This document shows, in pieces, positions 44,248-64,000 of a stretch of 64,000 nt of DNA (its first letter is position 1; each line of letters starts with the position of its first letter). The notes under the pieces were generated by a model. That model was not told the origin of the DNA, did no database searches, and was given only the letters and a program-made list of their open reading frames with translations. The stretch comes from Thioalkalivibrio paradoxus ARh 1 (GTDB lineage: Bacteria; Pseudomonadota; Gammaproteobacteria; Ectothiorhodospirales; Ectothiorhodospiraceae). The position numbers and the translations under genes are program-made. The stretch is from positions 842,501 to 906,500 of the forward strand of contig NZ_CP007029.1 in assembly GCF_000227685.2 (NCBI RefSeq), read 5' to 3'.

Positions 44248-44283
44248 ATGAAAAGTATGAAAAGTATGAAAAGTATGAAAAGC
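44248..44283 (+). repeat. 9-bp tandem repeat (ATGAAAAGT)4 over a start codon
   Basis: Four consecutive ATGAAAAG[TC] units give four in-frame ATG codons nine bases apart. A GGAG Shine-Dalgarno at 44243-44246 is one base before the first ATG and ten bases before the second. Copy-number change keeps the frame but alters N-terminal length. Confidence 0.95.
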
Positions 44284-46781: not shown

Positions 46782-47560
46782 CAGCTGGGCCAGCCCCAGT
46801 CCTCGCCGATGAGCTCGAACAGGCGGCGGTTGTAAGGGCGGAAGTGCTCTGTCAGGTAGCGCCGACATCGGTCATCCATCTGGTCCGCATAACGCCCCCG
46901 GGTTTGAGAGGAGTACCGGAGCGCTTGCTCGGGTCTAAGGCCCCGGTCTCTGACCAGACGTTCAAGTTCCCGCGTTACCCGTTCCCCCTCCCGTTGCAAT
47001 GCTTCCCAAAAGGATTCCTTTGGGAATCGTAGCGAATGTCGATACCAGTGCCGGTAATGCGAGTAGGCCCGGCTTACCGGATCCCGCAAGATCATCACGA
47101 TGCGCGCATCCGGAACCAGCTCTGCGGCTAGGGGTGCATACGACGGCAGGTGCATCTGGGGTGTGGCCTCGCCGGTCAGTGCCCGATAGCCCAGTTGCTC
47201 ACTGGTCCGGTCGATCCGGGCGCGCGTTGGGAATTGTGCACGGTGCCAGCGTTCCCCCTGTCGCTGGTGCCGGGGCGAGTTGAAATATTGGATCTCCTTG
47301 GTGGTTGCCGGGAGTTTCCCAGGATGCTGGCGGACGTAATCGTAGAGTGACGTGGTGCCCGCCTTCATCGCTCCGATGAGTAGAAAGTCAGGAAGCACGC
47401 CTGGATCCCCAAGGTGCATGCGGCGCAGGTAACGGGCCTGGTGCCGAGCCTCCCGGAAGTGCTGGCGTCCGCGCAGGAAAAGGTTTCGGACGAGGCTGCC
47501 GGAGCCACCACTCATCAGTCGAGGCTGGATCCGGGCGGGTTTGGTGGACCTTCTGCTCAT
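46781..47560 (-). CDS. Sulfotransferase (PAPS-dependent, heparan-type family)
   Basis: The 259-residue protein has the 5'-phosphosulfate loop LLIGAMKAGTTSLYDYVRQHPG and the 3'-phosphate segment IVMILRDPVSRAYSHYRHWYR, the two PAPS-binding motifs of the Sulfotransfer_1/3 family. KEIQYFN matches the substrate loop. It likely adds sulfate to a polysaccharide. It is translationally coupled to the polymerase/ligase upstream and the glycosyltransferase downstream. Confidence 0.92.
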   Translation of the reverse strand: MSRRSTKPARIQPRLMSGGSGSLVRNLFLRGRQHFREARHQARYLRRMHLGDPGVLPDFLLIGAMKAGTTSLYDYVRQHPGKLPATTKEIQYFNSPRHQRQGERWHRAQFPTRARIDRTSEQLGYRALTGEATPQMHLPSYAPLAAELVPDARIVMILRDPVSRAYSHYRHWYRHSLRFPKESFWEALQREGERVTRELERLVRDRGLRPEQALRYSSQTRGRYADQMDDRCRRYLTEHFRPYNRRLFELIGEDWGWPS

Positions 47561-49355: not shown

Positions 49356-50714
49356 ATGTCAGAATCCGAAACCACTCGACGCCGGCACCAGGGTCGGCGC
49401 TCGTCATCGCATATCGCACTCGTGTTCGGGCTCCAGGTACTCGGGCTGGCGGCCGGGTTCATCACTCATGTGATGCTGGCCCGTCTGATGGGCGATCCCG
49501 GGCAGTACGGCTGGGTGGCCGTCGGACAGAATGTCGCCCAGATCCTGGCGGCGCTGGTGGCGTTCGGTATCCCGATGGTGATCATGCGGCGGGCGTCCCA
49601 GCTCAGCGCGACAGGGGAACACCAAGCCATCCTCGCGCTGCGCCGGTTGGGATCGGCGGCCCTGATGCGTACCACGGGTCTGGTCTTGGTGCCGGCGCTG
49701 ATTCTGGCGGCGGGCGCGTATTTCTGGCCATCGGGCGGGACCGGCGAGATCGTCTTGGTGCTGGTCTTGGCGTTGCTGGCAGCGCCTTTCCTGGCGCTGA
49801 GCCGGCTGTATACGGGGTTCTCCCGGACCTACGGCTGGTTTGGCCTGTCGGTGGCTCCGGACCGGCTTTGGCGGCCGCTGCTGGTGCTGTTGCTGGCGTT
49901 GTTTCAGTGGTGGCTATGGCCGCCACTGGTGGCTGCACAGGCGCTGTTGGCATTTGTCGTCGCCAGTGTCGTCGTGGCTCTGTCGATGGGGTTCGTGACC
50001 GGCAGACGTCAGCGTGCCCGGGCATCTGTGCAGCCGGGCCCAGGGAATGACGTCGCCTTCACCGGTTCGTTGTGGCGCGTGTCCGCGGTGTTCGGCGCGC
50101 AGTCGATATTGGATGTCGTGGTCCGGCGCAGCGACGTGATCCTGGTGGGGCTCATGGTGGGCCCTGCATCCGCGGGCATCTACTTCGCCGCTTCACGGAT
50201 CGCGGAACTGCTGTCAATGCCCAGTGCAGCCGTCGGCACCGTGATTGCGCCGCGTTATGCACGCCGCCGGCAGATGAATGACCACCACGGTTTGCAGCGC
50301 CTGGTCACGCTCTCCGCACACGCGTCGTTCTGGCCCACCCTTGCCGGGGTCGTGCTGATGTTCTGGTTGGGGGAATGGGTTCTGGCGTGGTTCGGCGAGG
50401 AGTTCCGGGCAGGTACCGAGATACTGGCCCTGTTGTTGCTGGCGCGACTCGTGTTGGCCAGCGCGGGCCGTCTGCAGGCCCTGCTCAACATGGCCGGTGC
50501 AGAGCAAAGTGTACTCAGGTTGCAGATCGGTACGGCGATCCTGAATCTGTTCCTGCTGCTGATCTTGATCCCTTGGTACGGGGCTGTGGGTGCCGCGCTC
50601 GCACACCTGCTGGTCTGGACCACTTGGGTGGTCGTGGGCTCGCTGATTACACGGCGCCAGCTGGGAATTCGCCCGGGGATCCTCGGTATGTTGTGGCGGC
50701 CCACGCACGAATGA
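49356..50714 (+). CDS. Polysaccharide flippase (Wzx/MOP superfamily)
   Basis: The 452-residue protein has about 12-14 helices with the polysaccharide-export pattern: LQVLGLAAGFITHVMLARLMGDPGQYGWVAV at the start, RRSDVILVGLMVGPASAGIYFAASRIAELLS in the second half, then a Leu-rich C-terminal bundle. It flips lipid-linked repeat units across the inner membrane. Faces the sulfotransferase gene at 50740 convergently. Confidence 0.9.
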   Translation: MSESETTRRRHQGRRSSSHIALVFGLQVLGLAAGFITHVMLARLMGDPGQYGWVAVGQNVAQILAALVAFGIPMVIMRRASQLSATGEHQAILALRRLGSAALMRTTGLVLVPALILAAGAYFWPSGGTGEIVLVLVLALLAAPFLALSRLYTGFSRTYGWFGLSVAPDRLWRPLLVLLLALFQWWLWPPLVAAQALLAFVVASVVVALSMGFVTGRRQRARASVQPGPGNDVAFTGSLWRVSAVFGAQSILDVVVRRSDVILVGLMVGPASAGIYFAASRIAELLSMPSAAVGTVIAPRYARRRQMNDHHGLQRLVTLSAHASFWPTLAGVVLMFWLGEWVLAWFGEEFRAGTEILALLLLARLVLASAGRLQALLNMAGAEQSVLRLQIGTAILNLFLLLILIPWYGAVGAALAHLLVWTTWVVVGSLITRRQLGIRPGILGMLWRPTHE

Positions 50715-50739: not shown

Positions 50740-51756
50740 TTAGTAGTCGGTTGAACCCGATCCGGGGGCCGGCAGGGATATGTCGTCGCGAGCTTGTGGC
50801 GAGGGCATCAGCCAGTGGTCGAGATCCCGCCCCAGCAGGTGGCCGAGTTCGACGATCTCGTCGCGGTATTCGTTGCGCAGCCGTTCGTGCGCAGCGACAG
50901 GCAGTGGTGGAAACGGACGCAGGTTGCGTTTTTCGACCCAGTGGCGCAGCTGGCTGAGCAGGTCGAATGGCAGCATCCGTAGCAAGTGGTGCTTCAGGCG
51001 GTGCGAGGTCGCCAACGATTGCAATAGGCGGACTCGTGGGATGCCCGATCGGTTGCGCGCGTGGCCGGCGATGGACGCGAGTTCGGGATCGATGTCCAGG
51101 AACAGGCAAAGGCGGCGCCAGACTGCCTGAGGATCTCTGCGCAGGTCGTCGAACAGCAGCACGAGTAGCCGTTCGCGCGGAAATGATTCGAGGTACGGCC
51201 TGAGCTGGCGAACGTAGCGCCCCATGTGCAGGTATCGCAGCAGAAACTCGGATTCCCCGCGGGCCGGTTCCGCATCCAGTGCTTGCTCGAAATCCTCGAT
51301 CGGCTCGAGCCCGTCGCGGCGGGCGTGGCACCAGGCCGAGTAGGCGCGCTCGACCGGGTTGCGCAGGATGACCACGATCCGTGCGTCGGGGAACTCGCGG
51401 CAGATGCGCTCCGCGGTTCCGGGAACCGCCAGATACCAGGTGCTGGCTTCGCCGATGATGCGTTGGTCGGCGCGCGCCTTTTGGAACAGCCCGAGGTACT
51501 TGCCATGGCTGGTGACGACCCACTCGCGGGCGGGGGATGTGCGGCCGTGGCCATCGGGAAAGCGATAGCCGCGTTCCCCGAATGCGAGGTACCCCGGTTC
51601 CTTCGGGAAGGCCATGAAGGCTTGCGGATGCAGCATCAGCCAGTTGGCCAGAGTGGTCGTACCCGACTTCTGGGCACCCACGATGAACAGGTTGGGGCGC
51701 GCGCCGTGAGAGATACCCCCGAGACCGGATCCCATGGATTCTTCTTCGGACCTCAT
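50740..51756 (-). CDS. Sulfotransferase (second copy, larger)
   Basis: The 338-residue protein has LFIVGAQKSGTTTLANWLMLHP (5'-PSB loop) and IVVILRNPVERAYSAWCHARR (3'-PB), plus KEPGYLAF and GEASTWYLAVPG. It differs from the copy at 46781 in length and C-terminus, so they probably act on different positions or sugars. ATG 51756 or ATG 51735 could be the start. It follows the methyltransferase gene on the same strand with a 94-bp gap. Confidence 0.92.
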   Translation of the reverse strand: MRSEEESMGSGLGGISHGARPNLFIVGAQKSGTTTLANWLMLHPQAFMAFPKEPGYLAFGERGYRFPDGHGRTSPAREWVVTSHGKYLGLFQKARADQRIIGEASTWYLAVPGTAERICREFPDARIVVILRNPVERAYSAWCHARRDGLEPIEDFEQALDAEPARGESEFLLRYLHMGRYVRQLRPYLESFPRERLLVLLFDDLRRDPQAVWRRLCLFLDIDPELASIAGHARNRSGIPRVRLLQSLATSHRLKHHLLRMLPFDLLSQLRHWVEKRNLRPFPPLPVAAHERLRNEYRDEIVELGHLLGRDLDHWLMPSPQARDDISLPAPGSGSTDY

Positions 51757-51850
51757 CGAATTGATCCGCAGTGGCAGCGAGCACAGGATGGCACGCCATG
51801 CCCCCCGCACAGGGAGATGGCCTGCGCAGGTCTTGCTCGCATCGGTACCA

Positions 51851-52495
51851 TCAGCGGCGTACGAACCAGAAGGCCATGCCGGGAGCGGTCTGGCGTGGCA
51901 ACGGTCCAGCAGAGCGCTCCAGGTCCTGGCGGGTCCGTGCGTGGCGCTCCAGTTCGAAATCGCTTCCCAGAAGGTCCCGGACACTGTCGATCAATACGCT
52001 GGCTTCACCTTCCTGGCGATGGAGCAGCAGCAGCCGGCCCCCGGGGCGGCACCATGCTGCGACGTTCCGGGCATAGGTGCGCCGGAACTCGGTGGGGATG
52101 GTGTGCAGACAGCCGCGGTCCAGCAGGGCATCGAAGCTCCCGGGTTCGGGCGCATCGTGGAGGATGTCCAATCGGCGGAACTCCAGCCGGCCGGGAATCT
52201 CACCAAACTCCCGCCGCGCCAGTTGCGCCGCTTCCTCCGCCAGGTCACCGCCAACCACGGAAAATCCCCTTTCTGTCAGCCAGGCGCTGATTTGCCCCCG
52301 CCCGCTACCGATGTCGAGCACACGGCAGCCTTGGGGGAACCAGCCGGTTTCTACCGCTTCGACCAGTTCCTCCGGAACGGTGGTCGCCAGGGCACCATGG
52401 GGACGCTTGGATTCCACATGCCAGAGATGCTCCCACTTGCGCCGGTGGATTTTCCGCTCAAGACGGGGCGAGACTCGGCGCACGTATTTCAGCAC
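51851..52495 (-). CDS. SAM-dependent methyltransferase, class I
   Basis: About 214 residues with the SAM motif CRVLDIGSGRGQISAWLTERGFSVVGGD, LDILHDAPEPGSFDALLDRGCLHTI (the D/E-x-x-x-D-R-G pattern of thiopurine/tellurite-type methyltransferases) and WCRPGGRLLLLHRQEG. A conserved KWEHLWHVESKRPHG lies before the fold. GTG 52495 is a tentative start; the frame is open to 52714 but lacks family sequence. Last gene of the halogenase operon; substrate unknown. Confidence 0.75.
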   Translation of the reverse strand: MLKYVRRVSPRLERKIHRRKWEHLWHVESKRPHGALATTVPEELVEAVETGWFPQGCRVLDIGSGRGQISAWLTERGFSVVGGDLAEEAAQLARREFGEIPGRLEFRRLDILHDAPEPGSFDALLDRGCLHTIPTEFRRTYARNVAAWCRPGGRLLLLHRQEGEASVLIDSVRDLLGSDFELERHARTRQDLERSAGPLPRQTAPGMAFWFVRR

Positions 52496-52595
52496 GGTGT
52501 TGACGAGCCTGAGCCGCAGGCGCAGCAGCCCATCCTGTCGTGCGGGCTGGACTGTGTTCGGGCGTGTATGCGGGCGGTCTGGCCCGCTGGTCGGT

Positions 52596-53306
52596 TCATT
52601 TGATTGCAAGGAATCCCTCGAAGCAGATGTACTTGAACACTGTGGTGATGTCGGTGAACCCGGCCCGTTGCAGCAGGCCGAGGTTGCCTTCGGAGGAGAA
52701 GGGCTCCAGCACACCCTTCAAACTGCGCATCTTGGCCACGATCTCTTCCGATTGATAGCCCTGTTCCAGCTTGTACTCGGTGTACAGTGCATTCAGCATG
52801 TCCTGAAAGCGGGCATCCGGCCCGCGCACCTTTTCGAACAGGAAGAAGGCGCCGCCCCAGTTCAGACTTTGGTAGATGCGGTCGATCAACTGCTGGCGCA
52901 CCCGCGGCAGCACGAACTGCACCGTGTAGTACGCAATGATGACATCGGCGTTCTCCAGCGGTACTTCGAGGATGTCGCCCTCGATCACCTCCACGTTCGG
53001 GTGGCCGGCGCATTTCTCCCGTGCCCTGGCGACCATCTCCGGTTCCCGGTCGATGCCGACGATGCGTACGTCCTTGCGCCGGTGCCGTGCAGCCAGCCGG
53101 GTCAGCAGCGAGCCCGTCGAACAACCCAGTTCGTACAGCAGCGAGCCGTTGGGCAGGAAGAAGTCGGTCGCATGGGTAACCAATTCGTGGCCCGCTCGGT
53201 AGAACGGAACCGACCGCTGCACGTGTTCATCGAAGTGTTCGCTGACATCACCGCCAAATGACCAGTTGGCGTTGTCGGCCCGCAGTTCGTCACCGACCCC
53301 CGGCAT
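52596..53306 (-). CDS. CmoA-like SAM methyltransferase
   Basis: The 236-residue protein has FDEHVQRSVPFYRAGHELV, SLLYELGCSTGSLLTRLAARH, RIVGIDREPEMVARAREKC, and IIAYYTVQFVLPRVRQQLIDRIYQSLNWGGAFFLFEKVRG. The overall plan is that of CmoA (carboxy-SAM synthase) and related polyketide-operon methyltransferases. In this operon a tailoring role, such as O-, N- or ester methylation, is more likely than tRNA modification. ATG 53306 is chosen because GGAGAGG lies directly upstream; ATG 53321 is an alternative. It overlaps the DUF3179 gene by 17 bases. Confidence 0.8.
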   Translation of the reverse strand: MPGVGDELRADNANWSFGGDVSEHFDEHVQRSVPFYRAGHELVTHATDFFLPNGSLLYELGCSTGSLLTRLAARHRRKDVRIVGIDREPEMVARAREKCAGHPNVEVIEGDILEVPLENADVIIAYYTVQFVLPRVRQQLIDRIYQSLNWGGAFFLFEKVRGPDARFQDMLNALYTEYKLEQGYQSEEIVAKMRSLKGVLEPFSSEGNLGLLQRAGFTDITTVFKYICFEGFLAIK

Positions 53307-54339
53307 GTGCGCCCTCTCCATGTTGTCCGGCGTTCTCGGTTGCAGAGGCTTCACTGGCCAGCACGATGCCCGGATGGCGGGCCGCCAATGTTTGCCATTC
53401 CTCCAGTCGCGAGGCAAGGAGACGGAGTTGTGTGCCGGTCAGTGAGCCGGACACAGCCCGTCCAGTGAAATCCCAGTGACTTCCGGTTTGACGGTCCACC
53501 ATCCGGAAGCTGTCTGGATCGAATCGTAGACTTCGACCGTCGACCGCGGTGTCGTACGCGACCGCAAGCCAGGTGCCGGGAGGGGAAAAGGCCACCAGGG
53601 TCGTACCGTCTACATCGAGGTGGAGCATGCCTCCATGCCGGTGGATCAAGGACAGCGGGATGGCGAGGTGCGATGCCCCGGCGGTCACGCCAAGGGTCAG
53701 CGTCTCCGAGGCAAGCCGTGCGTCCGCACGCAGCAGCGTGCGGCTGACCCGAGGATAGCGGCGATGCTCTCCAGCCACTGGCCGAGTCTGTTCAACGCGC
53801 ACGGGTGCGGCCGTAGGTGACAGCACCCGGGTATCCGGGCAAAGCGTGTGCCACTCGCGCCAGCGGCACTGGTACAGGGGCAGATGTTCCAGTTCACGTC
53901 CCTCGAAGGGGCCGGTGACGGCGGTCCCGGTCCCCGGGAGCCAGAGACTGCCCTGGGACCGGTCGGCCATGATCATCGCCCCGTTATGGATACCCGCGAC
54001 CCGGAAGCGAAGCCGCTGACCGTCCACCACGGGTCGAAAGGCCGCGGCATGGCTGCACGCAGGGCAGAGCGTGACGAGGACCGGCTCAGCGCCCAGCGTC
54101 AGATTCGCGATATGCGGTGCGGATACCTGTGACCAAGGTAGCGCCCAGGATCGACCATCCAGTACCAGTCCGAGGACTGGATCGTCCGGGGCGAGGTGGA
54201 TGGCTTCGGTCGCGCCGACCCAGTCGACATCATCCAAAGATTGCCGGTACGGACCCCAATGCATTCCGGGAAGGGGCGGCCTGCGTAGCCGAGCGATGCG
54301 CCCGCGCAGGCGAGCCCAGATCTCAGAAGCGGATCGCAT
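53290..54339 (-). CDS. DUF3179 protein
   Basis: The 349-residue protein matches DUF3179: ALPWSQVSAPHIANLTLGAEPVLVTLCPACSHAAAFRPVVDGQRLRF (with TLCPxC), DRSQGSLWLPGTGTAVTGPFEG, LEHLPLYQCRWREWHTLCPDTRVL, and a second half VAFSPPGTWLAVAYDT, TGSHWDFTGRAVSG and LRLLASRLEEWQTLAARHP. Conserved Cys/His residues suggest a metal site. No signal peptide is obvious. No biochemical role is established; in this operon it overlaps both the halogenase and the methyltransferase, so it is likely a part of the same pathway. Confidence 0.85.
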   Translation of the reverse strand: MRSASEIWARLRGRIARLRRPPLPGMHWGPYRQSLDDVDWVGATEAIHLAPDDPVLGLVLDGRSWALPWSQVSAPHIANLTLGAEPVLVTLCPACSHAAAFRPVVDGQRLRFRVAGIHNGAMIMADRSQGSLWLPGTGTAVTGPFEGRELEHLPLYQCRWREWHTLCPDTRVLSPTAAPVRVEQTRPVAGEHRRYPRVSRTLLRADARLASETLTLGVTAGASHLAIPLSLIHRHGGMLHLDVDGTTLVAFSPPGTWLAVAYDTAVDGRSLRFDPDSFRMVDRQTGSHWDFTGRAVSGSLTGTQLRLLASRLEEWQTLAARHPGIVLASEASATENAGQHGEGAHAGGR

Positions 54340-55624
54340 CCAGCTTCCGGCTCTTGTTCCAGCGGGCGACGGCCGCATCGTCGAGGTCGGCCACGGCCTG
54401 GAAGTTGCGGGCACGCGTCGTCAGTAGCGCGGCGGTGTAGGTCAGCTCCTGTTCCCTGCTCGGTTGGAAGCCCATGAAACGGCGGGCACGTTGGAGCGAT
54501 GTATCGCCCGCGTCGCGCCCGGGGAGCGCCATCGCGCGGGCCACTTCGTAACGGCCCCTGAACTGCTGCGCATAGATGCCCTGGTTGTGTTCCGTGTTCT
54601 CAGGCTGGCGCAGGGACCGGTCGATCGCCCAGGCGGCCGCGTGCCCCGAATACATGCCGAGCACTACGCCGAGCGAGAAGATCGGGTCCACGAATGCAGC
54701 GGCATCGCCGACGATGAAGTATCCGGGACCGGTCAGGCGGGTTGGCACATAGGAATAGTCCCGGATCACGCCGAGACTGCCTTGTCGGTAACGCGCCTGC
54801 TCCAGCAGGCGTCCGAGATAGGGTGTGCGCGTGCAGGTATCGAGGAAGTACTGTTCGAGCCGGTCGCCCGCCACCTTCGCCGCCTTGAACTGTTCCAGCG
54901 GAAGGATCAGGCCCACGCTCGTGGTGTCTCTCTGCGGGATGTGCCAGGACCATCCCCAGTCGCCGAGCGAGGTCACCAGCGTGGTTGGCGGGATCTCGCG
55001 CAGCCGCTCGAACGGGTAGGCACAGCCGTCGCCCGCCACGTATCGGGAGTCGTCGAAATAGCCCCACATCGCGACGAAGCGGAAATCCTCGTCGATGACC
55101 CGGGTACCCATCTGCCGCGAAAGCACCGCGGCCTGGCCGCTGGCGTCGACGACGAAGCGGCAGCGGATCTCGCCTGTGCCCGTGTCGGCCCCCGAGTAGC
55201 GCACCCGCGGGCCCGTCGGCGCATCGAGATCCACGTTACGTACGGCGACCTGTTCGAAGACCTGAACATTCTGCCGACGCGCGTGGTCGAGCAGCAGCCA
55301 GTCGAACCGGTCGCGCTCGACGTGCAGGCCGGGGCGCGTGTAGCCGAAATCGCGGAACGCGATCTGGTTGATCTCGTCGTTCCAGATCACGGTGCCACCC
55401 GATTTCACGACGAACCCGGCGTCGGTGATCGTGTCCGTGACGCCGAGCAGGTCGAAAAAGCGCCACGCCTGGGGCAGCAGACTCTCGCCCACGGTGGCCC
55501 GCGGATGGGTCTGGCGGTCGAGCAGCGCAACCTCGTAGCCCTTGCTTGCGAGCATCGTCGCGGCAGTGCTCCCGGAAGGTCCGCCCCCGATGACGACGAC
55601 GTCGGCACGCACAGGGATGGTCAT
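54323..55624 (-). CDS. Flavin-dependent halogenase, PltA-like
   Basis: The 433-residue flavoprotein has GGGPSGS at 13-18, HPRATVGESLLPQ near 40-52, the halogenase signature W-S-W-H-I-P at 225-230 (preceded by another W at 223), a Lys at 74 in KSGGTVIW where PltA-type halogenases have their active-site Lys, and FIVGDAAAFVDPIFSLGV. These features separate halogenases from monooxygenases. PltA-group enzymes chlorinate or brominate a pyrrole held on a carrier protein. The carrier-protein gene lies 3 bp upstream and the prolyl-activating-type enzyme next, supporting that substrate. A flavin reductase is needed and is not in the window. Confidence 0.85.
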   Translation of the reverse strand: MTIPVRADVVVIGGGPSGSTAATMLASKGYEVALLDRQTHPRATVGESLLPQAWRFFDLLGVTDTITDAGFVVKSGGTVIWNDEINQIAFRDFGYTRPGLHVERDRFDWLLLDHARRQNVQVFEQVAVRNVDLDAPTGPRVRYSGADTGTGEIRCRFVVDASGQAAVLSRQMGTRVIDEDFRFVAMWGYFDDSRYVAGDGCAYPFERLREIPPTTLVTSLGDWGWSWHIPQRDTTSVGLILPLEQFKAAKVAGDRLEQYFLDTCTRTPYLGRLLEQARYRQGSLGVIRDYSYVPTRLTGPGYFIVGDAAAFVDPIFSLGVVLGMYSGHAAAWAIDRSLRQPENTEHNQGIYAQQFRGRYEVARAMALPGRDAGDTSLQRARRFMGFQPSREQELTYTAALLTTRARNFQAVADLDDAAVARWNKSRKLDAIRF

Positions 55625-55627
55625 GGC

Positions 55628-55879
55628 TCAGGTTTCCGTGCTGCGTTCGACCAGCGCGACGATCGTGGTCGGAGTCTCGAAGTTTTCCGGTGTCAGCGCG
55701 TCGCTGTCGATCTTGATCCCGTAACGTTCCTCGAGGAACGCGACCAGGTTGAGGAAATCGAGGGAGTCCATCAGGTTCTCGGCAAGCAGGGGGGTGTCCG
55801 GGTCGACTTGGATCGCCTGCCCCCCTCTGGCGCAGTTCTGGCGGATCCAGCCGATCACGCTTTCGGTGATATCGCTCAT
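55628..55879 (-). CDS. Acyl/peptidyl carrier protein
   Basis: The 83-residue four-helix carrier has the phosphopantetheine site in NLMDSLDFLNLVAFLE, Ser39. DPDTPLLAE before it and YGIKIDSDALTPENFETPTTIVALVE after are typical. PltL/PigG-type proline carriers have the same length and place between adenylation and halogenase/oxidase genes. Its ATG is 4 bases after the adenylation-enzyme stop. Confidence 0.93.
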   Translation of the reverse strand: MSDITESVIGWIRQNCARGGQAIQVDPDTPLLAENLMDSLDFLNLVAFLEERYGIKIDSDALTPENFETPTTIVALVERSTET

Positions 55880-55883
55880 CTTG

Positions 55884-57449
55884 TTACTCTTGCAGGGCCG
55901 ATTCTTCGGCCACCCGATGGTCGGAACGGGCGTGCTCGCGCAACAGCCCGCGGTCGACCTTTCCGGTGGCGGTTCGTGGCAGCGAAGGATACCGCATCCA
56001 GCGCGTTGGAATGCTGTAGGCCGGCAGGTGCCCTGCGGCGTGGCTGCGGAGCTGGTCGTCGCCGGTCTCGTCCGGGGCGACCACCGCGCCCACGAGTTCG
56101 GGCTCACTGTCACCGGCGACGACTACGGCAACCTCCGTGATGTCCGGGTGCAGACCCAGTACATTCTCGACGTCGCCCAGCTCGATCCGGTGGCCGCGAA
56201 GCTTCACCTGGTGGTCTCGGCGCCCGACCAGGGTCAGCCGTCCCTGTGCGTCGCGGAAGCCGAAATCGCCGGTGCGGTAGGAATCCGGACGCCCGGCGAT
56301 GCGGACTGCGTGGGTCAGCGCCGGGCGCCCCCAGTAGCCCTGCATCACCGCGGGTCCCAGGACACAGATCTCTCCGGTGGTGCCGTCAGCAACGTCGTCT
56401 CCGTGCTCGTCGAGCAGACGCACTTCGAGATGCGCGCACGCCTGCCCGATGGGGATCGACCGACAGCCGGGCATGGGTGGCTCGGGCACTTCGTAGCTGG
56501 TGCAGACGTTGGTTTCGGTGGGGCCGTACCAGTTCAGAAATCGCGCGCCGGGCAGGGCGTGCATCGCGGCGGCAAGCCGCCGCGGCGGGTAGGCCTCGCC
56601 GGCAAAGATCATCAGGCGCAGTGCCGGCAGGCGTGTCGCGTCGAGTGCATCGCGGTCCACGAGCATCCGGATCGCGGTGGGGACCGAATACCAGACGCTG
56701 ATCCGCTCGGTCTCGAGCATGCGCGCGACGGATCCTGGAAACTTCACCGCGACCTCATCCAGCAGGTGGACCGCGGCGCCGACGCTGAACGTGGCGAAGA
56801 GGTCGAAGGTGGAGAGGTCGAAATGAAACGGCGCGTGGCTGCTGACCCGGTCATCGGCCGTCAGTCCGGTTTCATGCACGGCCCAGTCGACAAAGGCGCT
56901 GATGTTGGCGTGGCTCAGCATCACGGCCTTCGGGGTTCCCGTGGAACCCGAAGTATAGAGCAGTGCGGCCAGTGCCTCACCGGAGGGAGGCGGCAGGGGC
57001 GGGCCGGACGGCGTGTCCCCGATCCGCGCGCGCAGCGCTTCGCCGTGTGCGACCCGGGGCAGCGCCAGCGTGGCTACCGACGAGTCTTCGAGGGCCGGCT
57101 GCAGGCGGCCGAGGGTTGAGTCGGTGCCCGCGACCAGTTTTGGCCGGGCATCCTCGAGGATCCGCCGAGCCCGTTCGGGCGGAATCTGGGCGTCGAGCGG
57201 TACGTAGGCGCTGCCCGCGGCCAGGGTTCCCAGGATCAGTGCGACTGCGTCGACCGACTTCGGCAGGCATAGCGCGACGCGGTCGCCGGGCTGAACTCCC
57301 TGGCGCAGCAGCCAGGTCGCCGTGGACTGTGCCAGCTCCGCCAGTTCGCGGTAACTGGTCGCCTGGCCTCGGAAGACCACTGAGGGGCGTTCGGCTGTGG
57401 CCGGCCGGGTCGCGTGGTCCAATGCGTCGAACAGCGCCGACGTGGACAT
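55884..57449 (-). CDS. Stand-alone adenylation enzyme, L-prolyl-AMP ligase (PltF/PigI)-like
   Basis: The 521-residue ANL enzyme has A3 TSGSTGTPK at 166-174, A4-A5 SSHAPFHFDLSTFDLFATFSVGAAV and NWYGPTETNVC, A7 YRTGDFG, A8 GRRDHQVKLRGHRIELGDVEN, and A10 LPRTATGKVDR with the catalytic Lys. The HFDLS[TV]FD segment and the small size fit proline-activating PltF/PigI/RedM-type enzymes that load free carriers. Specificity is inferred from neighbours (carrier plus acyl-CoA-dehydrogenase-like oxidase plus halogenase) and not proven. Its start overlaps the oxidase stop by one base. Confidence 0.85.
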   Translation of the reverse strand: MSTSALFDALDHATRPATAERPSVVFRGQATSYRELAELAQSTATWLLRQGVQPGDRVALCLPKSVDAVALILGTLAAGSAYVPLDAQIPPERARRILEDARPKLVAGTDSTLGRLQPALEDSSVATLALPRVAHGEALRARIGDTPSGPPLPPPSGEALAALLYTSGSTGTPKAVMLSHANISAFVDWAVHETGLTADDRVSSHAPFHFDLSTFDLFATFSVGAAVHLLDEVAVKFPGSVARMLETERISVWYSVPTAIRMLVDRDALDATRLPALRLMIFAGEAYPPRRLAAAMHALPGARFLNWYGPTETNVCTSYEVPEPPMPGCRSIPIGQACAHLEVRLLDEHGDDVADGTTGEICVLGPAVMQGYWGRPALTHAVRIAGRPDSYRTGDFGFRDAQGRLTLVGRRDHQVKLRGHRIELGDVENVLGLHPDITEVAVVVAGDSEPELVGAVVAPDETGDDQLRSHAAGHLPAYSIPTRWMRYPSLPRTATGKVDRGLLREHARSDHRVAEESALQE

Positions 57450-58603
57450 CAGGCCGGGCCTCCCCGCCCAAGTGTGCGTGCGATGATCGCGAGCTGTACG
57501 TCCGAGGTGCCGGACGCGGAAAGGGTTCCCACGACATCGGCAAGGCCGCCGCCGAGGCCCTGGGGATCGGTCCAGCCTTCGCCGGCCGTCACCCGCATCA
57601 GGTCCAGCGCGATCTCGACCAGTGCCTCGCTGGCCGCAAACTTGGCCGTGGCGGCGCCGGCCAGATCGCGCCGGCCCTGGTCGATTTCCCAGGCAGCCCG
57701 ATACAGTAGCAGACGGGCACCCTCGAGCCGGACCTGCATGCGTGCCAGTCGCAGCGCGACGGTCTCGTGCTCAAATAGTGCGCCGCGCCCGTCGCGTTTC
57801 TCCCGCAAGCGTGCTGTGGCGCGGGCAATGTCCCGCTCGGCCGCACCCAGCAGGCCGGCGAGGATGCCGGTCCGCTCCCACTGCATGCAGGTGGAGAACA
57901 CCCGCAGGCCGGCTCCGGATCCACCGACCACGGCGCGTGCCGGAACACGGCAGTCGTCGAGCGCCACCGTGCCCATAGGGGCCCCCTCCATGCCCAGCGT
58001 CCCCCGGTGGGGGGTTACCCGCAGTCCGGGAGTATCCTTGGGAACGAGGAACGCAGTCAGACCGAAGCCTCCGCGGTCGGGCTTCTCGGACGTCAACACC
58101 AGAAACAGGTCCGCATCCGGTGCATTGGTAATGAAGACCTTTTCGCCGGAGATCCGGTAGCCCCCGTCGCCGTCGGCGTCCGCGCGGGTCGACATTGTGA
58201 CCGGGTTGGAGCCACCGCTCGTCTCGGTGACTGCGAGCGCGGCCAGCGTCCGGCCCGACGCCAATGCCTCGACCCACTCGCGCTGCTGGTCGTCGTTCAG
58301 ATAGCGGGCCAGCGGAATCGTAACGCCCAGCAGGTGGGCACCCAGTGCAAATAGGAATCCGCGCTCGGCACCCCCCTGGCCGAGCGCCTCGAGTGCGCGT
58401 ACCAAGGCCAGAAAGCCGAGATCCCGCCCACCCCATTCGGCGGGCAACGGCCATCGAGGCAGCCCGGTGGCCGCCAGCGCCTGCCAAGCCGAGCGATCGA
58501 AGCCGTTCGGCGTGCGAGGAGACGCCCAGTGGGTCTCGGCAAAGGCCCGCATGTCTGCGGCGAGCTGCCGCAGTCCCTCATCCCATCCGAATTCCACGTG
58601 CAC
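57449..58603 (-). CDS. Acyl-CoA-dehydrogenase-like flavoenzyme, prolyl-carrier oxidase (PltE/PigA)-like
   Basis: The 384-residue protein has the ACAD fold: RWPLPAEWGGRDLGFLAL, AALAVTETSGGSNPVTMSTRA, GYRISGEKVFITNAPDADLFLVLTSE, GLRVTPHRGTLGMEGAPMG, and the C-terminal RVTAGEGWTDPQGLGGGLADVVGTLSASGTSDVQL. PltE/PigA/RedW enzymes oxidise prolyl-S-carrier to pyrrolyl-S-carrier in four electrons; operon position supports this. Two GTG codons (58603, 58597) are possible starts. Confidence 0.82.
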   Translation of the reverse strand: MHVEFGWDEGLRQLAADMRAFAETHWASPRTPNGFDRSAWQALAATGLPRWPLPAEWGGRDLGFLALVRALEALGQGGAERGFLFALGAHLLGVTIPLARYLNDDQQREWVEALASGRTLAALAVTETSGGSNPVTMSTRADADGDGGYRISGEKVFITNAPDADLFLVLTSEKPDRGGFGLTAFLVPKDTPGLRVTPHRGTLGMEGAPMGTVALDDCRVPARAVVGGSGAGLRVFSTCMQWERTGILAGLLGAAERDIARATARLREKRDGRGALFEHETVALRLARMQVRLEGARLLLYRAAWEIDQGRRDLAGAATAKFAASEALVEIALDLMRVTAGEGWTDPQGLGGGLADVVGTLSASGTSDVQLAIIARTLGRGGPA

Positions 58604-58625
58604 CCCCCGGTCGAACTCGTAGTCG

Positions 58626-59513
58626 TTATTCCAGCGTGTCCAGGTATTGCCGGATCTGGTCAGCAAGAACCTGGCTCGGATCCCGGCGCCACCTTGCCTC
58701 CAGCCGCTTTCCGTATGCCCGGACCATCGTCGCGATTGCTTCGCGCTGCTCTAGTTTGGCGTCCGGTCGTGCCAGTGCGGGCTCGAACTCGATCTGAACC
58801 CTGCCGCTCGGTTCCAGGGTCGAGAATACCGGGATGACTTCGGCTCCCGTCAGTAAGGCAAGGGATGCGAAGCCACCACGCAGATCCCGCGTTCCGTGCA
58901 GGAATGGCAGGGTCATCGGGTTGCCCCCACGCCCACCATCTCCGGCCAGGTGCAGCACCCGACCCTGTTCGAGCGCTTCGCGGGCCCGCGCAAGCCCCTG
59001 TAACTGGAAGGCTCCACGCCCGAGTTCGATGAAGTGCAGAGGCTCCCCGCTGCCCGTGGTGGACACACCGTAGGTGGAATCAAGGCGATTCTGGGTCAGC
59101 AGGGATACCGTATCGATCCCCTCGCGTGCCAAGGCAACGTTCGCGATATGTCCGAGTCCATAATGGGAGTTCAGCACGATGACACGTTTGCCGCTCTTCA
59201 GAGGATCGGTGATTCGTTCGAGCGCGGAGACGGTGACCCAATGCTCCCATACCTGCCGGGGGGCGCAAGTCAGTGCACAGTAGCGCCAGGAGCCCAGGAC
59301 CGCGAGTCCGAGGTGGCGCCGCTGAATCGAATCGGGATGCATGCGCGACTGACCCAGGAGTTGTGTCAACGTGGCGATTGGGCGCAGGCGGGCGCGTAGG
59401 ATCTGGGTAACGCCGGGCAGTTGGGCGGCCATCCAGAGCAACCGGGTTCCGGCCGGATAGGGTAGCTTCTGGCAAAGCACCCGTTTTGCGGAATCCTTGT
59501 TGAATCGCCGCAT
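58626..59513 (-). CDS. LpxL-like acyltransferase
   Basis: About 295 residues of the lysophospholipid/lipid A late acyltransferase type: VIVLNSHYGLGHIANVALA (in place of the HxxxxD/E core, here N-S-H-Y-G-L-G-H), RALEQGRVLHLAGDGGRGG-like middle (LHLAGDGGRGGNPMTLPFL) and AEVIPVFSTLEPSGRVQIEFEP. Aryl-polyene clusters carry similar acyltransferases thought to join the polyene to a glycerolipid core. ATG 59513 is used; TTG 59531 is possible. First gene of the leftward operon. Confidence 0.8.
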   Translation of the reverse strand: MRRFNKDSAKRVLCQKLPYPAGTRLLWMAAQLPGVTQILRARLRPIATLTQLLGQSRMHPDSIQRRHLGLAVLGSWRYCALTCAPRQVWEHWVTVSALERITDPLKSGKRVIVLNSHYGLGHIANVALAREGIDTVSLLTQNRLDSTYGVSTTGSGEPLHFIELGRGAFQLQGLARAREALEQGRVLHLAGDGGRGGNPMTLPFLHGTRDLRGGFASLALLTGAEVIPVFSTLEPSGRVQIEFEPALARPDAKLEQREAIATMVRAYGKRLEARWRRDPSQVLADQIRQYLDTLE

Positions 59514-59901
59514 CGGGTGCTTTAGGGCCAAGGATGGGAGCGCCGCCCCATCATGCGTCCGATTTCGCCCGAAGAATCGGTCGGGTCGTGCGAGTATGTG
59601 CCCACGCGATGCCTGGTAGCAGCGAGTTGACCTGGGCCACGAATGTCAACGATGGTTGGACGCATGAGAGCAGGGGTGCGATTTATGGGAATCATGATCA
59701 GATTAGGTTACAACGTGTCGCGTGACTATCCAAAATGCACAGGAATCCGCTGGCAAGCGCCCGATGCTGGCCGGCAGCTCGCCAACCGTGGTCCGCGCGC
59801 GCTATTGGGTGTGCAGTGGAAGAGGTGCTTGCCGATGCGCCATCTCCCGAACGCTTCCGGAAAACGGTAAGGTCATCGGGGGCTTGCATCGACCGATCGT
59901 C
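59514..59901. promoter_or_regulatory. Divergent intergenic control region of the two pigment operons
   Basis: This 388-bp gap separates the two operons. A weak sigma-70-like pair TTACAA (59708-59713) and CAAAAT (59731-59736), 17 bases apart, could serve the rightward operon. An A/T-rich patch around 59690-59715 stands out. No regulator gene or operator was recognised, and the frame of the chorismate-lyase-like gene is open upstream to 59722 without family sequence. Confidence 0.35.
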
Positions 59902-60471
59902 ATGAGCATTTCCCGCTCCGCGGCCTTGCGGCATGCCCGTTGGTACCGGGGCTGTCGATTGCACCGCTCATCGGTGCCCGGCCTCGTGCGCGGGTGGCTG
60001 CTGGAGCCGGGTTCGTTGACCCAACGCCTGCGGCAAGGGTGCCCGGATGGCTTTCACCTTGATCTGCTGGAGCAGCGCCTGATGCGGCCTCTGCGCGACG
60101 AGGCCCTGGCGCTGGGCAGGCCGAGCCATGAAGTGGCCATGGTGCGGCAGGTGCGGTTGTGTTGTAAGGGGGTGGTGTGGGTGCATGCGCGCACAGTGAT
60201 CCCGCTTCCCTCACTCGAACGGGGTCTCAGGCGCCTGACGCGCCTCGGTGCGCGTCCACTCGGCGAGGTGTTGTTCGCGGATCCGACGATGACCCGCGGA
60301 GAGGTGGAGGTTATTCGGTTAACCCCGGGTCATTTCCTTCATGCCCAGAGTGGCGCCGCTGGGGACGAGGTGCTGTGGGGGCGGCGTTCGGTTTTTACCC
60401 TCCAGCGGCAGCCTTTATTGGTCAGTGAGTTCTTCCTTCCGTGGCTCTGGCGCGCGGGGCCGGGCCGGTGA
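59902..60471 (+). CDS. Chorismate lyase-like enzyme (UbiC family)
   Basis: The 189-residue protein fits UbiC: WLLEPGSLTQRLRQG near 32-46, EVAMVRQVRLCCKGVVWVHARTVIP (Arg82/85 in the place of the product-binding Arg), PLGEVLFADP and a C-terminal LLVSEFFLPWL with Glu176 in the place of the catalytic Glu. UbiC releases pyruvate from chorismate to give 4-hydroxybenzoate. Next to an AMP ligase and a carrier protein it probably makes an aromatic starter rather than ubiquinone. GTG/ATG choices are open; ATG 59902 has no strong Shine-Dalgarno. Confidence 0.8.
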   Translation: MSISRSAALRHARWYRGCRLHRSSVPGLVRGWLLEPGSLTQRLRQGCPDGFHLDLLEQRLMRPLRDEALALGRPSHEVAMVRQVRLCCKGVVWVHARTVIPLPSLERGLRRLTRLGARPLGEVLFADPTMTRGEVEVIRLTPGHFLHAQSGAAGDEVLWGRRSVFTLQRQPLLVSEFFLPWLWRAGPGR

Positions 60472-60621: not shown

Positions 60622-62403
60622 ATGAATGAAGCCGTCTCTCGCACCAGATCCGCTATCGAAGTCCACGAGGTTGCGTCCGAGTGGGATGTGGTCGTTTGCG
60701 GTGCGGGTGTTGCCGGTCTGACCTTCGCCTTGCAACTGCGCCAGCGGCTTCCCGGGGTCTCGATTGCCGTGGTCGACCGGCTGGAACGGCCGCTGCCCCG
60801 GGCCGCGTTCAAGGTGGGCGAGGCTACCACGGAGGCGGGTGCCTGGTATCTCACCGAGGTCATCGGGATCGGTGACTATCTGGAGCAGCGGCACGTGCGC
60901 AAGCTCGGCCTGCGCATGTACTTCCAGGGCGATACTCCCGGCCACTCGCTCGATGCCCGCCCGGAGATCGGCGTATCGCGGTTCCTGACGCCGTATGCGT
61001 ATTCTGTCGACCGAGGCCGGCTGGAGAACGATCTGAGGGGGTTGCTGGAGGAGCGCGCGATTCACTTGATCGAAGGGGGCAACGTCGCGGACTTCCAGTT
61101 GGCGGCAGATGATGGTGCCTGGCACGAGATCCGGATCGAAAGCAAGACTGGTATGCGGCGGCTGCATGCCCGCTGGCTTGTCGATGGCTCGGGGCGTCGG
61201 GCCTTGTTGCGCCGGCGCATGGGGCTCACGCAGCACAACCCCGGGTATGGCTCGGTCTGGTTTCGGGTCGCCACCGAGATCGACGTTGAGGACTGGGTGG
61301 CGCCAGAATCGGAATCGTGGCACTCACGGGCCGGCAACGGGGCCCGCCGCTATCATGCGACTTGCCATCTCGTGGGACCCGGCTACTGGGTCTGGTTGAT
61401 CGCCCTGCCGGGCGGATACACCAGCATCGGCATTGTCTCGAACGGAAAGGATCATCCCTATACCAGCTTTAACACCCCAGACAAGTGCATGGGCTGGATC
61501 GAGCGCAACGAGCCGCTGCTCGCGGCAGCGCTGCAGGGGCATGAGCTCTGCGACTTCGCCAAGATGCCCAACTACAGCTACGTGACTCGGCAGGCGTTCT
61601 CGGCGTCGCGCTGGGCTTGCATCGGGGAGGCCGCCGCATTCCCCGACCCGTTGTATGGCACCGGTTTCGAAGTGATCGCATTGTCCAACTCGATGACCGT
61701 GAATTTCATCGAGAAGGATTTCCGCGGCACGCCTTGCGCACGCGAAATCGATGCAGCCAACCGCTTCTTCACACAGTATTGTCTCGGGCTTACCGACGCC
61801 ATCCAGTCGTCGTACGACTACTTCGGACATCCGGTTATTGCCACCCTGAAGGTTCTCTGGGACACGCTGGCGGGCTGGCTCTTCAATGCACCGCTGCTGA
61901 CGCATGCGTTGTACGACGACCCCGAAATGCGGTTGCGTCTGCGGGCCGAGACGGGGCGTTTCTATTTTCTCAGCAGACGCCTGCGCAGGCTGATGAACGA
62001 GTGGTCGCGGGCGCAGACGCAGATGGTTCGGCTCGAGTACCTGGATTTCACCCGCCTGCCCTTCTTCCGGGCCGCGCGACAGGCCGGTTTCCGCAAGGAG
62101 ATGGACGCGGCCACGCTGCTTGCCCATCATCGCGATAGCCTCGCCCTGATGGAGCGATTCACCTTGGTCATCTTCCTGCTCGCGCTGGCCGACTGCCGGC
62201 CGGGTTTGCTCGCACGGGTGCCCGACGATCTGCGGCTCAACGCTTGGGCGGTCGGGCTCGACCCCGGGCGCTGGGAAGTCGACGGGCTGCTCGCCCGGGA
62301 CAATCCCCGGCACGACCTCGACGATATGCTGCGCCCGTTGCTCTCGATGATCCGGGCGCCGGTGCTGGATCGCTTCCTCGAGAGCGAAGTGGTGGGAGGC
62401 TGA
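60622..62403 (+). CDS. Halogenase-like FAD flavoprotein, long form (593 aa)
   Basis: The protein has GAGVAG at 27-32, FKVGEATTEAG at 63-73, a Lys at 94 in KLGLRMYF, YSVDRGRLENDL and W-V-W-L-I-A at 256-261, where halogenases have WxWxIP. IGEAAAFPDPLYGTGFEV is the second FAD motif. A helical C-terminal extension of about 200 residues follows (LLAHHRDSLALMERF). Similar long flavoproteins sit in xanthomonadin/aryl-polyene pigment clusters. Whether it halogenates, hydroxylates or only binds is open because the motif Pro is Ala. The AMP-ligase gene follows after 3 bp. Confidence 0.8.
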   Translation: MNEAVSRTRSAIEVHEVASEWDVVVCGAGVAGLTFALQLRQRLPGVSIAVVDRLERPLPRAAFKVGEATTEAGAWYLTEVIGIGDYLEQRHVRKLGLRMYFQGDTPGHSLDARPEIGVSRFLTPYAYSVDRGRLENDLRGLLEERAIHLIEGGNVADFQLAADDGAWHEIRIESKTGMRRLHARWLVDGSGRRALLRRRMGLTQHNPGYGSVWFRVATEIDVEDWVAPESESWHSRAGNGARRYHATCHLVGPGYWVWLIALPGGYTSIGIVSNGKDHPYTSFNTPDKCMGWIERNEPLLAAALQGHELCDFAKMPNYSYVTRQAFSASRWACIGEAAAFPDPLYGTGFEVIALSNSMTVNFIEKDFRGTPCAREIDAANRFFTQYCLGLTDAIQSSYDYFGHPVIATLKVLWDTLAGWLFNAPLLTHALYDDPEMRLRLRAETGRFYFLSRRLRRLMNEWSRAQTQMVRLEYLDFTRLPFFRAARQAGFRKEMDAATLLAHHRDSLALMERFTLVIFLLALADCRPGLLARVPDDLRLNAWAVGLDPGRWEVDGLLARDNPRHDLDDMLRPLLSMIRAPVLDRFLESEVVGG

Positions 62404-63891: not shown

Positions 63892-64000
63892 CCCACGACA
63901 CGATTCGTGAAAAGGTCCGCTCGGCCGTGGCCAAGGTGATGGAGACCGGTGTGTCGGATCTCGACGACGCTGCTGATCTGTATATCGATTCCGTGGCGAC
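63888..64000 (+). CDS. Acyl carrier protein, 5' part cut by window edge
   Basis: The first 37 codons read MTHDTIREKVRSAVAKVMET, then DLDDAADLYIDSVA. DSV holds the phosphopantetheine Ser at residue 35. The gene continues beyond base 64000. It is coupled to the ligase by ATGA and should carry the starter or the growing polyene. Confidence 0.85.
   Translation, partial: MTHDTIREKVRSAVAKVMETGVSDLDDAADLYIDSVA

Follow-up and report, generated by a model that had tools for sequence, protein, structure and literature searches.

We propose that the window, the whole 64,000-nucleotide stretch of DNA analysed here, encodes a system in which rings built on carrier proteins would be esterified by LpxL-type enzymes onto a cell-surface glycan or glycolipid whose synthesis genes belong to the same genomic island; we put the probability of this reading at about one in two. 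In the proposed route, a ligase would adenylate L-proline and load it onto the operon's own carrier, a dehydrogenase would remove four electrons to convert the prolyl-carrier into a pyrrole-2-carboxyl thioester, a halogenase would then add chlorine or bromine to the ring, and an LpxL-like enzyme would move the ring from the carrier to an acceptor hydroxyl, most likely on a sugar residue within a sulfated glycan or glycolipid of the cell surface. Judging from gene content, a divergent sister module with a paralogous LpxL-like enzyme would follow the same route with a chorismate-derived hydroxybenzoyl group, and two methyltransferases and the sulfotransferases may tailor the product. The genes are as follows.

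43947-64000, no strand: in-window part of a block absent from a close congener (genome comparison)
45777-46868, minus: family 2 glycosyltransferase (PF00535, 103.3 bits)
46781-47665, minus: second sulfotransferase (PF13469, 40.1 bits on a longer ORF; start uncertain)
47557-49161, minus: O-antigen ligase/polymerase-like protein (PF04932, 24.3 bits, below the cut-off of 31.7)
49356-50714, plus: polysaccharide flippase-like protein (PF01943, 46.9 bits; cut-off 28.2)
50740-51738, minus: sulfotransferase (PF13469, 73.7 bits)
51851-52588, minus: class I methyltransferase (PF13649, 55 bits)
52596-53321, minus: CmoA-like class I methyltransferase (TIGR00740, 165.0 bits; 4gek, 126.9 bits; start inferred)
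53290-54339, minus: DUF3179 protein (PF11376, 158.7 bits)
54323-55624, minus: flavin-dependent halogenase with WxWxIP and the family Lys, K74 (Pfam, solved matches, alignment)
55628-55879, minus: carrier protein, 83 aa (PF00550, solved matches)
55884-57449, minus: stand-alone adenylation enzyme, predicted L-proline type (solved-ligase matches, specificity code)
57449-58603, minus: predicted prolyl-carrier dehydrogenase, a pyrrole-forming relative of acyl-CoA dehydrogenases (NCBIfam, structures, trees)
58626-59513, minus: LpxL-like acyltransferase 1 (PF03279, paralogue, His117/Asp192)
59722-60471, plus: chorismate lyase, first gene of the sister module (PF04345, 96.4 bits; start uncertain)
60622-62403, plus: flavin halogenase-like enzyme, sister module (PF01494 and PF04820)
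62407-63891, plus: predicted aryl acid:carrier ligase, sister module (PF00501, 190.1 bits)
63888-64000, plus, cut by the window end (L004:4389-4643): carrier, sister module (PP-binding, 34.3 bits)
L004:4670-5632, minus, beyond the window: LpxL-like acyltransferase 2, convergent to the sister-module carrier and a paralogue of acyltransferase 1

The minus-strand operon runs in the order LpxL-like enzyme, dehydrogenase, ligase, carrier, halogenase, DUF3179 protein, two methyltransferases and sulfotransferase; the genes named in the earlier note for 50740-59513, and their order, were borne out by the list of open reading frames and by Pfam and NCBIfam matches. The spacing of -1 to 22 bp claimed there holds from the LpxL-like gene through the halogenase: 22 bp lie between the LpxL-like gene (59513-58626) and the inferred dehydrogenase start (GTG 58603), the dehydrogenase (58603 to 57449) and the ligase (57449-55884) overlap by one base, 4 bp separate the ligase end from the carrier ATG (55879), and 3 bp separate the carrier end (55628) from the halogenase start (55624). 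Downstream, the DUF3179 ORF (about 54339-53290) overlaps the halogenase stop (54323), and the sulfotransferase gene (50740-51738), the last of the operon, ends at 50740; the starts of the DUF3179 protein, both methyltransferases and this sulfotransferase are uncertain. Pfam E-values were 2e-87 for the ligase (AMP-binding), 8.3e-28 for the dehydrogenase (Acyl-CoA_dh_1) and 2.5e-24 for the halogenase (Trp_halogenase), and the annotation of the core operon genes is above chance. The genes are thus present as stated, but the unit is larger than 50740-59513, extending left to about 43947 and right past the window end. It corresponds to a block of about 22.9 kb, reaching to about position 66828, that is absent at this place from the close congener G010 (pieces of at least 120 bits among the matches listed). 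Besides both carrier modules, this block holds flippase-like, glycosyltransferase and two sulfotransferase genes; that a single glycosyltransferase turned up in it, and that the O-antigen ligase-like protein scores below its cut-off, count against the glycan reading.

The step that would join ring chemistry to the envelope is assigned to the LpxL-like enzymes. The two copies in this genome are 60% identical, one beside each carrier module. PF03279 scored 24.9 bits for acyltransferase 1 and 32.0 bits for a relative in a distantly related locus (L110), against a cut-off of 22.3, and 19.8 bits, under that cut-off, for acyltransferase 2, for which an overlong ORF was used. Acyltransferase 1 measures about 295 aa, and other domains were not found in it; its single-sequence fold model had a mean pLDDT of 33.6. 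His117 and Asp192 are invariant in all three aligned homologues, and the acid of the H(X)4D/E motif is missing from each (L110 reads HIGLSR, and the copies in this genome read HYGLGH and HYGQGH, both HX4H). In the available text of PMC9597891, VexE of the Vi capsule likewise lacks the motif acid and acts through a distal Asp, using a carrier-protein acyl donor in a capsule context, and the His and distal acid of VexE and PatA fit His117 and Asp192. Because a paralogue lies beside each carrier module and these residues fit VexE/PatA, we proposed a transfer role: the earlier note had the enzyme acylating the pyrrole, and it more likely removes the pyrrole from the carrier and places it on an acceptor. 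Acyltransferase 1 resembles LpxL, LpxM, PatA and VexE in a PF03279 score over cut-off and in the His with distal Asp, but its donor would be an aryl group instead of a fatty acid, and HX4H replaces HX4D/E. If true, LpxL-family enzymes would be aroyl transferases with a new kind of acyl donor.

The acceptor would be a sulfated surface glycan or glycolipid. We proposed it because glycan genes lie in the same indel block and because, in L110, a polysaccharide locus (WecG-type, GNVR/Wzz-like, glycosyltransferase and sulfotransferase genes) also houses a carrier, a ligase, a chorismate lyase and an LpxL-like gene; this is the one example outside the present genome of an LpxL-like gene among glycan genes, which counts against the reading. 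Clorobiocin offers a known precedent for placing a pyrrole-2-carboxyl group on a sugar hydroxyl: in the accessible part of PMC11218499, the group is assembled on a carrier and passed to the sugar by an acyltransferase (CloN4-CloN5-CloN3 with CloN1/CloN2/CloN7); the window differs in having an LpxL-like acyltransferase, surface-glycan genes without an aminocoumarin, and a halogenase inside the operon. Alternatively, the operon product might be a diffusible halopyrrole (an antibiotic, signal or UV screen), with the LpxL-like enzyme joining a small alcohol or amine to the ring and the glycan genes being unrelated passengers of the island. The characterised halopyrrole cassettes Plt, Bmp and Mpy yield small molecules, the DUF3179 protein and the two methyltransferases have no obvious glycan role, and the glycan gene set of the block is small. 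We nevertheless consider a diffusible product less likely, since the ORF list and domain search revealed neither a thioesterase nor a condensation or ketosynthase gene in the operon (PF00109 gave one full and two short ketosynthase matches in the whole genome), the LPLAT enzymes LpxL, LpxM, PatA and VexE use hydroxyls of glycolipids or nucleotide sugars as acceptors in the available text of PMC9597891, and the same enzyme type occurs in the L110 polysaccharide cluster.

The divergent sister module, together with its link to the glycan genes, had been missed in the earlier reading. A genome-wide PF04345 search matched its chorismate lyase alone, so this enzyme may serve quinone synthesis. Its halogenase-like enzyme has WVWLIA where WxWxIP is expected and matches PltA best among solved structures, at only 58.9 bits, and its ligase is 39% identical to the L110 ligase that adjoins a chorismate lyase. 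A fuller version of the glycan reading, in which halopyrrole-2-carboxyl and (halo)hydroxybenzoyl groups would both be esterified by the paralogous LpxL-type enzymes onto one sulfated glycan or glycolipid, is offered tentatively. Aryl polyene and xanthomonadin clusters likewise combine an aryl acid derived from chorismate with a ligase, a carrier, a halogenase-like enzyme and an LpxL-type acyltransferase; identity as an aryl polyene cluster was rejected because the genome shows no ketosynthase set beyond one full and two short matches. The Bmp1-4 and Bmp5-8 genes offer another likeness, a pyrrole set with its halogenase next to a chorismate lyase and a second flavin halogenase (the roles of Bmp5/Bmp6 in the bromophenol genes). 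The window departs from Bmp in its carrier, which has no fused thioesterase, and in its additional LpxL-like enzymes; moreover, in place of a decarboxylation, a ligase would activate the aryl acid and load it onto a second carrier.

The operon halogenase contains GGGPSG, WSWHIP and K74, in keeping with GxGxxG, WxWxIP and an active-site Lys, which we take to be the defining motifs of PltA-type halogenases; K74 is invariant in the four aligned halogenases, and WxWxIP occurs in the window protein only (1/4). Single-sequence matches to solved structures were 3e1t (175 bits), 8zop (163), CmlS (155), 5buk (139), PltA (119) and 5bva (101), and family-profile matches were 3e1t (200), CmlS (195), 5buk (192.5), ChlB4 (192), PltA (189) and 5bva (112), where we take 3e1t to be CndH, 5buk Mpy16 and 5bva Bmp2. 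PltA, Mpy16 and Bmp2 were thus rejected as nearest solved relatives, 3e1t and CmlS scoring higher in both searches. The earlier claim that the pyrrole is halogenated is plausible: the enzyme likely puts chlorine or bromine on the ring. Less probably, the pyrrole is made but the halogenation target of this enzyme is instead the hydroxybenzoyl group or the completed product, an improbable course to which the top single-sequence matches (3e1t, 8zop, CmlS) lend some weight, as do the nearest relatives, whose loci resemble polyene-type clusters by eye, one of them (L108) with no ligase or dehydrogenase match in the 20 kb read. In the available text of PMC8269204, phenolic and pyrrole halogenases cluster together and substrate is hard to tell from sequence. 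Against this course, the gene directly follows the carrier gene, the sister module owns a halogenase-like gene, and two of three close relatives (L046 and L109) adjoin a prolyl-code ligase and a same-clade dehydrogenase, a count biased because L046 was found via its dehydrogenase.

Proline activation, as claimed earlier, is backed by the specificity code and by the rank of two solved L-proline--carrier ligases (7thn, 278 bits; 6o6e, 275 bits), directly behind multi-domain synthetases that match in two stretches. The code, DLFYIAWVC, is proline-type, agreeing at seven of nine positions with the DLFYLALVC of three ligases (L009, L037, L046; DLLYLALVC in L010); its Trp322 is odd, being absent from all five other proline-type codes read, and Ile299 is shared with L109, which has the same gene set alongside. 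The sequence thus strongly indicates that proline is adenylated by this enzyme and loaded onto the carrier. The carrier scored 26.6 bits with PF00550 (cut-off 20.8), its DSL motif with the phosphopantetheine serine was read directly, and its best solved match was 6cxt_A, the carrier that partners Bmp3 in the complex of entry 6cxt, which bears out the dedicated carrier.

For the dehydrogenase, the closest NCBIfam models were RedW (289.4 bits) and PigA (279.9), the next family scoring 151; both cut-offs (650 and 500) were missed, so neither name applies, which does not bar the wider cassette. Structure matches were 4irn (218.7 bits), 6cxt_B (215.4) and 5zw0 (205.1), with the next other family at 153.1. 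Two trees (86 and 30 rows) place it, on a long branch in both, with AnaB, Bmp3 and RedW-like enzymes at 100/100 rather than with fatty acyl-CoA dehydrogenases. The catalytic Glu is kept (MQWER, aligned with MEWER/MDWER/MIWEK); 12 of 18 other dehydrogenases in the alignment have Glu there, so it alone is not diagnostic. Some members of the same clade (L005, L011, L013, L015, L020) neighbour ligases whose codes are not of the proline type, as does the L115 dehydrogenase, left out of the tree. Models, structures and trees together support the claimed oxidation to pyrrole: removal of four electrons from the prolyl-carrier is strongly indicated, and ring formation on the carrier is well supported. 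The proline-to-pyrrole reading thereby withstood both refuting conditions set in the earlier note, a non-proline ligase code and a fatty acyl-CoA dehydrogenase placement. It is quite improbable that a proline analogue or other small amino acid is loaded and becomes an unsaturated aminoacyl thioester other than pyrrole-2-carboxyl, with the flavin enzyme acting on it or serving as a hydroxylase, since the code is largely proline-type, Ile299 recurs in L109, and the dehydrogenase keeps its Glu, whereas the N-oxygenase ChmG has Met in the available text of PMC10849742, in spite of Trp322, the mixed codes across the clade and the N-oxygenation by a dehydrogenase relative described there.

The operon resembles other pyrrole pathways in its stand-alone prolyl ligase and carrier and its pyrrole-forming dehydrogenase. 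These gene roles are those of PltF/PltL/PltE/PltA in pyoluteorin and of the PigI/PigG/PigA and RedW sets in prodiginines; a flavin halogenase is shared with PltA, to which the window enzyme is less near than to CndH. In contrast to these sets, polyketide or condensation partners were not seen in the operon, and LpxL-like, DUF3179, CmoA-like and sulfotransferase genes are present. If the glycan reading is true, an autotrophic sulfur bacterium of soda lakes would possess a classic antibiotic-type route to pyrrole and couple it to envelope chemistry, the cell envelope would be served by halopyrrole chemistry of the natural-product kind, and a gene signature of carrier and ligase together with an LpxL-like enzyme among glycan genes could be used to find ring-decorated surface polymers. 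Among the remaining genes, identity of the CmoA-like protein as a carboxy-SAM synthase was rejected (TIGR00740, 165.0 versus 193.3 bits; NF011995, 129.9 versus 285), the Arg of QKR in the 4gek alignment, presumably the substrate-binding R199 of CmoA, being replaced by Met. The operon sulfotransferase is 34% identical to that of L110.

The genome that carries the window (home) is one contig of 3,756,729 bases from Thioalkalivibrio paradoxus ARh 1, which a passage of PMC4653848 describes as a sulfur oxidiser of soda lakes. The window spans contig positions 842501-906500. An earlier note on this DNA had described a coupled leftward operon with tight spacing, at 50740-59513, and the gene order and gaps that we read bore this out. 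On the minus strand, the genes were arranged in the order LpxL-like acyltransferase (PF03279-type), dehydrogenase, ligase, carrier, halogenase, DUF3179 protein, CmoA-like methyltransferase, second methyltransferase and sulfotransferase, including the following:

57449-58603, minus strand, dehydrogenase
55884-57449, minus strand, ligase
55628-55879, minus strand, carrier
53290-54339, minus strand, DUF3179 protein (PF11376, a family of unknown function according to Pfam), inside the candidate halopyrrole operon

The structure model of the DUF3179 protein had a mean pLDDT of 33.5, and the repeat, promoter and PHROGs scans gave no useful result.

We propose, with a probability of about 0.85, that this cassette loads proline and forms pyrrole. 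Compared with solved structures, the ligase matched the L-proline--carrier ligases 7thn (278 bits) and 6o6e (275 bits), and the only entries ranked above these were multi-domain synthetases with two matched stretches: linear gramicidin synthase, whose total of 398 bits comes from stretches of 192 and 203 bits, and 8xjz_C, with 318 bits summed over two stretches. With a profile of four cassette ligases, 6o6e reached 442 bits and 7thn 377, and the next one-stretch chain was tyrocidine synthase 1 with 365. We take these two solved ligases to be PltF and PigI. The earlier note had asked how the specificity code compares with PltF/PigI; the code DLFYIAWVC (PheA numbering) proved to be proline-type, with a Trp at 322 that is without precedent among the proline-type codes read at the loci compared. 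DLFYLALVC was found in the ligases of three loci (L009, L037 and L046), DLLYLALVC in L010 and DLFYIALVS in L109, all beside dehydrogenases of the same clade, and the L109 code thus provides a precedent for the Ile at 299. Ligases near related dehydrogenases in six other loci (L005, L011, L013, L015, L020 and L115) had clearly different codes; therefore, the proline assignment is drawn from the code and not from the dehydrogenase clade by itself. In the Geomonas loci L011 and L013, the clade dehydrogenase adjoins a ligase with the code DLFNHSVSS or DLFNHSISS, which is not proline-like. A literature search with the specificity codes as text words found no paper.

The dehydrogenase scored 289 bits with the RedW model and 280 with PigA, under the cut-offs of both, and 151 with the next family. 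Its best solved relatives were 4irn, a prolyl-ACP dehydrogenase that we take to be AnaB (218.7 bits), 6cxt_B (215.4), and the RedW-like L-prolyl-carrier dehydrogenase 5zw0 (205.1) with its mutant 6af6 (202.5), followed by the next other protein at 153.1 bits. Named relatives were the best 80 of at least 595 stretches. A first tree had 86 rows: 82 for loci and the window, three for typed references and one for L109. In it, the window dehydrogenase fell in a 15-row branch with 4irn, 6cxt_B and 5zw0 (support 100/100), a placement to be read with the caveat of its own long branch. The 12 clade rows again lay on one side of a branch (100/100) in a tree of 30 of these rows, with 18 others, from which L037, L046 and L109, all inside the clade in the larger tree, were omitted for their long branches. 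Thus, on the question of PltE/PigA-type versus fatty acyl-CoA dehydrogenases, the enzyme groups with the prolyl-carrier enzymes, and both trees rule out a fatty-acid dehydrogenase. The catalytic-column Glu is consistent with this and not diagnostic, since it occurs in 12/12 clade rows and also in 12 of the 18 others (isovaleryl-CoA-dehydrogenase-like) of the 30-row set. In a set of 58 genomes that included home and 29 congeners, the dehydrogenase was confined to home at E <= 1e-60; in the class sample it was present in 2/369 genomes, home and G249, and the G249 ligase has a non-proline code. A plasmid search with the dehydrogenase matched 23 records, four of which were inspected. On two Rhodobacterales plasmids (L115:7564-11741 and L119:11595-15772), polysaccharide export genes stand next to a carrier, dehydrogenase, methyltransferase and ligase (code DIFFIGSMC, from L115 only). 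This set may be a non-proline relative of the window cassette that sits in a glycan locus.

The carrier had a PP-binding match above cut-off, and its best solved match was 6cxt_A, the carrier partner of Bmp3; that carrier is named alpha/beta hydrolase fold protein in the entry, whereas the window carrier has 83 residues and no thioesterase. The halogenase contains the flavin motif and WSWHIP. As a single sequence it matched 3e1t (175 bits), 8zop (163), CmlS (155), 5buk (139), ChlB4 (132), RadH (130), PltA (119) and 5bva (101), and a profile built from it and the three relatives closest to it matched 3e1t (200), CmlS (195), 5buk (192.5), ChlB4 (192), PltA (189) and 5bva (112); we take 3e1t, 5buk and 5bva to be CndH, Mpy16 and Bmp2. 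At E <= 1e-60, it was found in three of the 369 class-sample genomes, home included. The close relatives (39-44% identical) adjoin a prolyl-code ligase, a clade dehydrogenase and, by eye, ketosynthase-like genes in L046 (Methyloprofundus) and L109, and by-eye exporter-like genes in L108, with no ligase or dehydrogenase match in the 20 kb read, a neighbour count that is biased because L046 came from the dehydrogenase search. The two Methyloprofundus-type clusters (L046:6799-12653 and L109:5735-10080) are candidates for a halogenated pyrrolyl polyene. A plasmid search with the halogenase matched 42 records, in one of which no acyl-CoA dehydrogenase was among the listed features of a table self-described as incomplete. 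Pyrrole and phenolic halogenases fall in common clusters, according to a passage of PMC8269204. We therefore grade it as likely, judging from sequence, that the operon enzyme would halogenate the pyrrole ring.

A second module diverges from the operon on the plus strand. It encodes a chorismate lyase (PF04345, 96 bits), a halogenase-like flavin enzyme of 593 residues, a ligase of aryl type and a carrier. The lyase may also serve quinone synthesis, since it is the sole PF04345 match in the home genome. A second LpxL-like gene, 60% identical to the first, lies convergent behind this module past the window end, so each of the two carrier modules comes with an LpxL-like enzyme. Among the same 58 genomes, either LpxL-like copy (E <= 1e-15) and the second halogenase-like gene (E <= 1e-30) occurred in home only; a plasmid search with the LpxL-like protein gave no match at E 1e-8, and its structure model had a mean pLDDT of 33.6. 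The LpxL-like pair matched 2/369 class genomes at E <= 1e-25, home and G116. In G116, the LpxL-like gene diverges from genes for a carrier, a chorismate lyase (Rv2949c-like) and a ligase that shares 39% identity with the second ligase. The locus around them also encodes a GNVR/Wzz-like protein, several glycosyltransferases including a WecG type, and a sulfotransferase that shares 34% identity with that of the window. It is mainly because of this single case that we read the LpxL-like enzymes as glycan-acting aryl transferases. As a passage of PMC9597891 describes, LPLAT enzymes pair a His with an acid, VexE lacks the HX4D/E acid, VexE and PatA use a distal acid, and in capsule synthesis VexE transfers the acyl group of an acyl carrier protein to UDP-GlcNAc. 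The three LpxL-like homologues resemble this variant: all lack the HX4D/E acid and retain His117, and all retain Asp192, which we infer to be the distal acid. In clorobiocin, according to an excerpt of PMC11218499, a carrier-built pyrrole-2-carboxyl group goes onto a sugar hydroxyl, a precedent for the pyrrole-to-sugar step proposed here. We lean towards the LpxL-like enzyme as the transferase that off-loads the ring from the carrier, and tentatively suggest a glycan or glycolipid as the acceptor.

Of nine congeners, G010 was the nearest (86% identical), judged by a single protein, the helicase that flanks the block on its left. The G010 alignment ended at window 43946, restarted patchily at L004:7330 (66829 in window numbering; L004 runs past the window end) and was continuous from L004:9859 onward; thus, about 22.9 kb in home stands where G010 has about 0.4 kb (pieces of at least 120 bits). 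This one pair is compatible with either insertion in home or loss in G010. The block contains both aryl modules, a TauE-like protein and, from left to right, a glycosyltransferase, a sulfotransferase, an O-antigen-ligase-like gene (under cut-off), a flippase-like gene and a second sulfotransferase. Near its left edge, a lipoprotein-like ORF (44218-44850, plus strand) opens with a repeated MKS unit, and the Met codon in every copy gives several candidate starts. Another ORF (44973-45734, plus strand) with HGDFWVGNVWVAADGRIWIHDP gave no family match and by eye resembles aminoglycoside-kinase-fold proteins.

The earlier note knew of no such pyrrole cassette in this kind of bacterium, and among the papers searched we likewise found no description of one in Thioalkalivibrio and no paper combining Thioalkalivibrio, pyrrole and halogenase. 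The cassette itself is of a known type; what is new is that it is linked with glycan genes and a pair of LpxL-like enzymes. Identity of the first methyltransferase as the tRNA enzyme CmoA was rejected, as its scores fell short of the cut-offs of both CmoA models and the substrate-binding Arg of CmoA (R199) is absent. An aryl polyene pigment came into question on two grounds, the presence of LpxL-like, halogenase-like, ligase and carrier genes and the production of the yellow pigment natronochrome by congeners; the genes for natronochrome were unidentified as of 2011 according to a passage of PMC3368412. The lack of ketosynthases ruled out an aryl polyene at this locus. Halogenase-like matches (E <= 1e-30) with 36-38% identity and open frames of 458-616 aa were found in 8/29 congeners (G002, G004, G009, G011, G018, G021, G022 and G024; loci L093-L099 and L101), and these genes could be a lead for chloronatronochrome.
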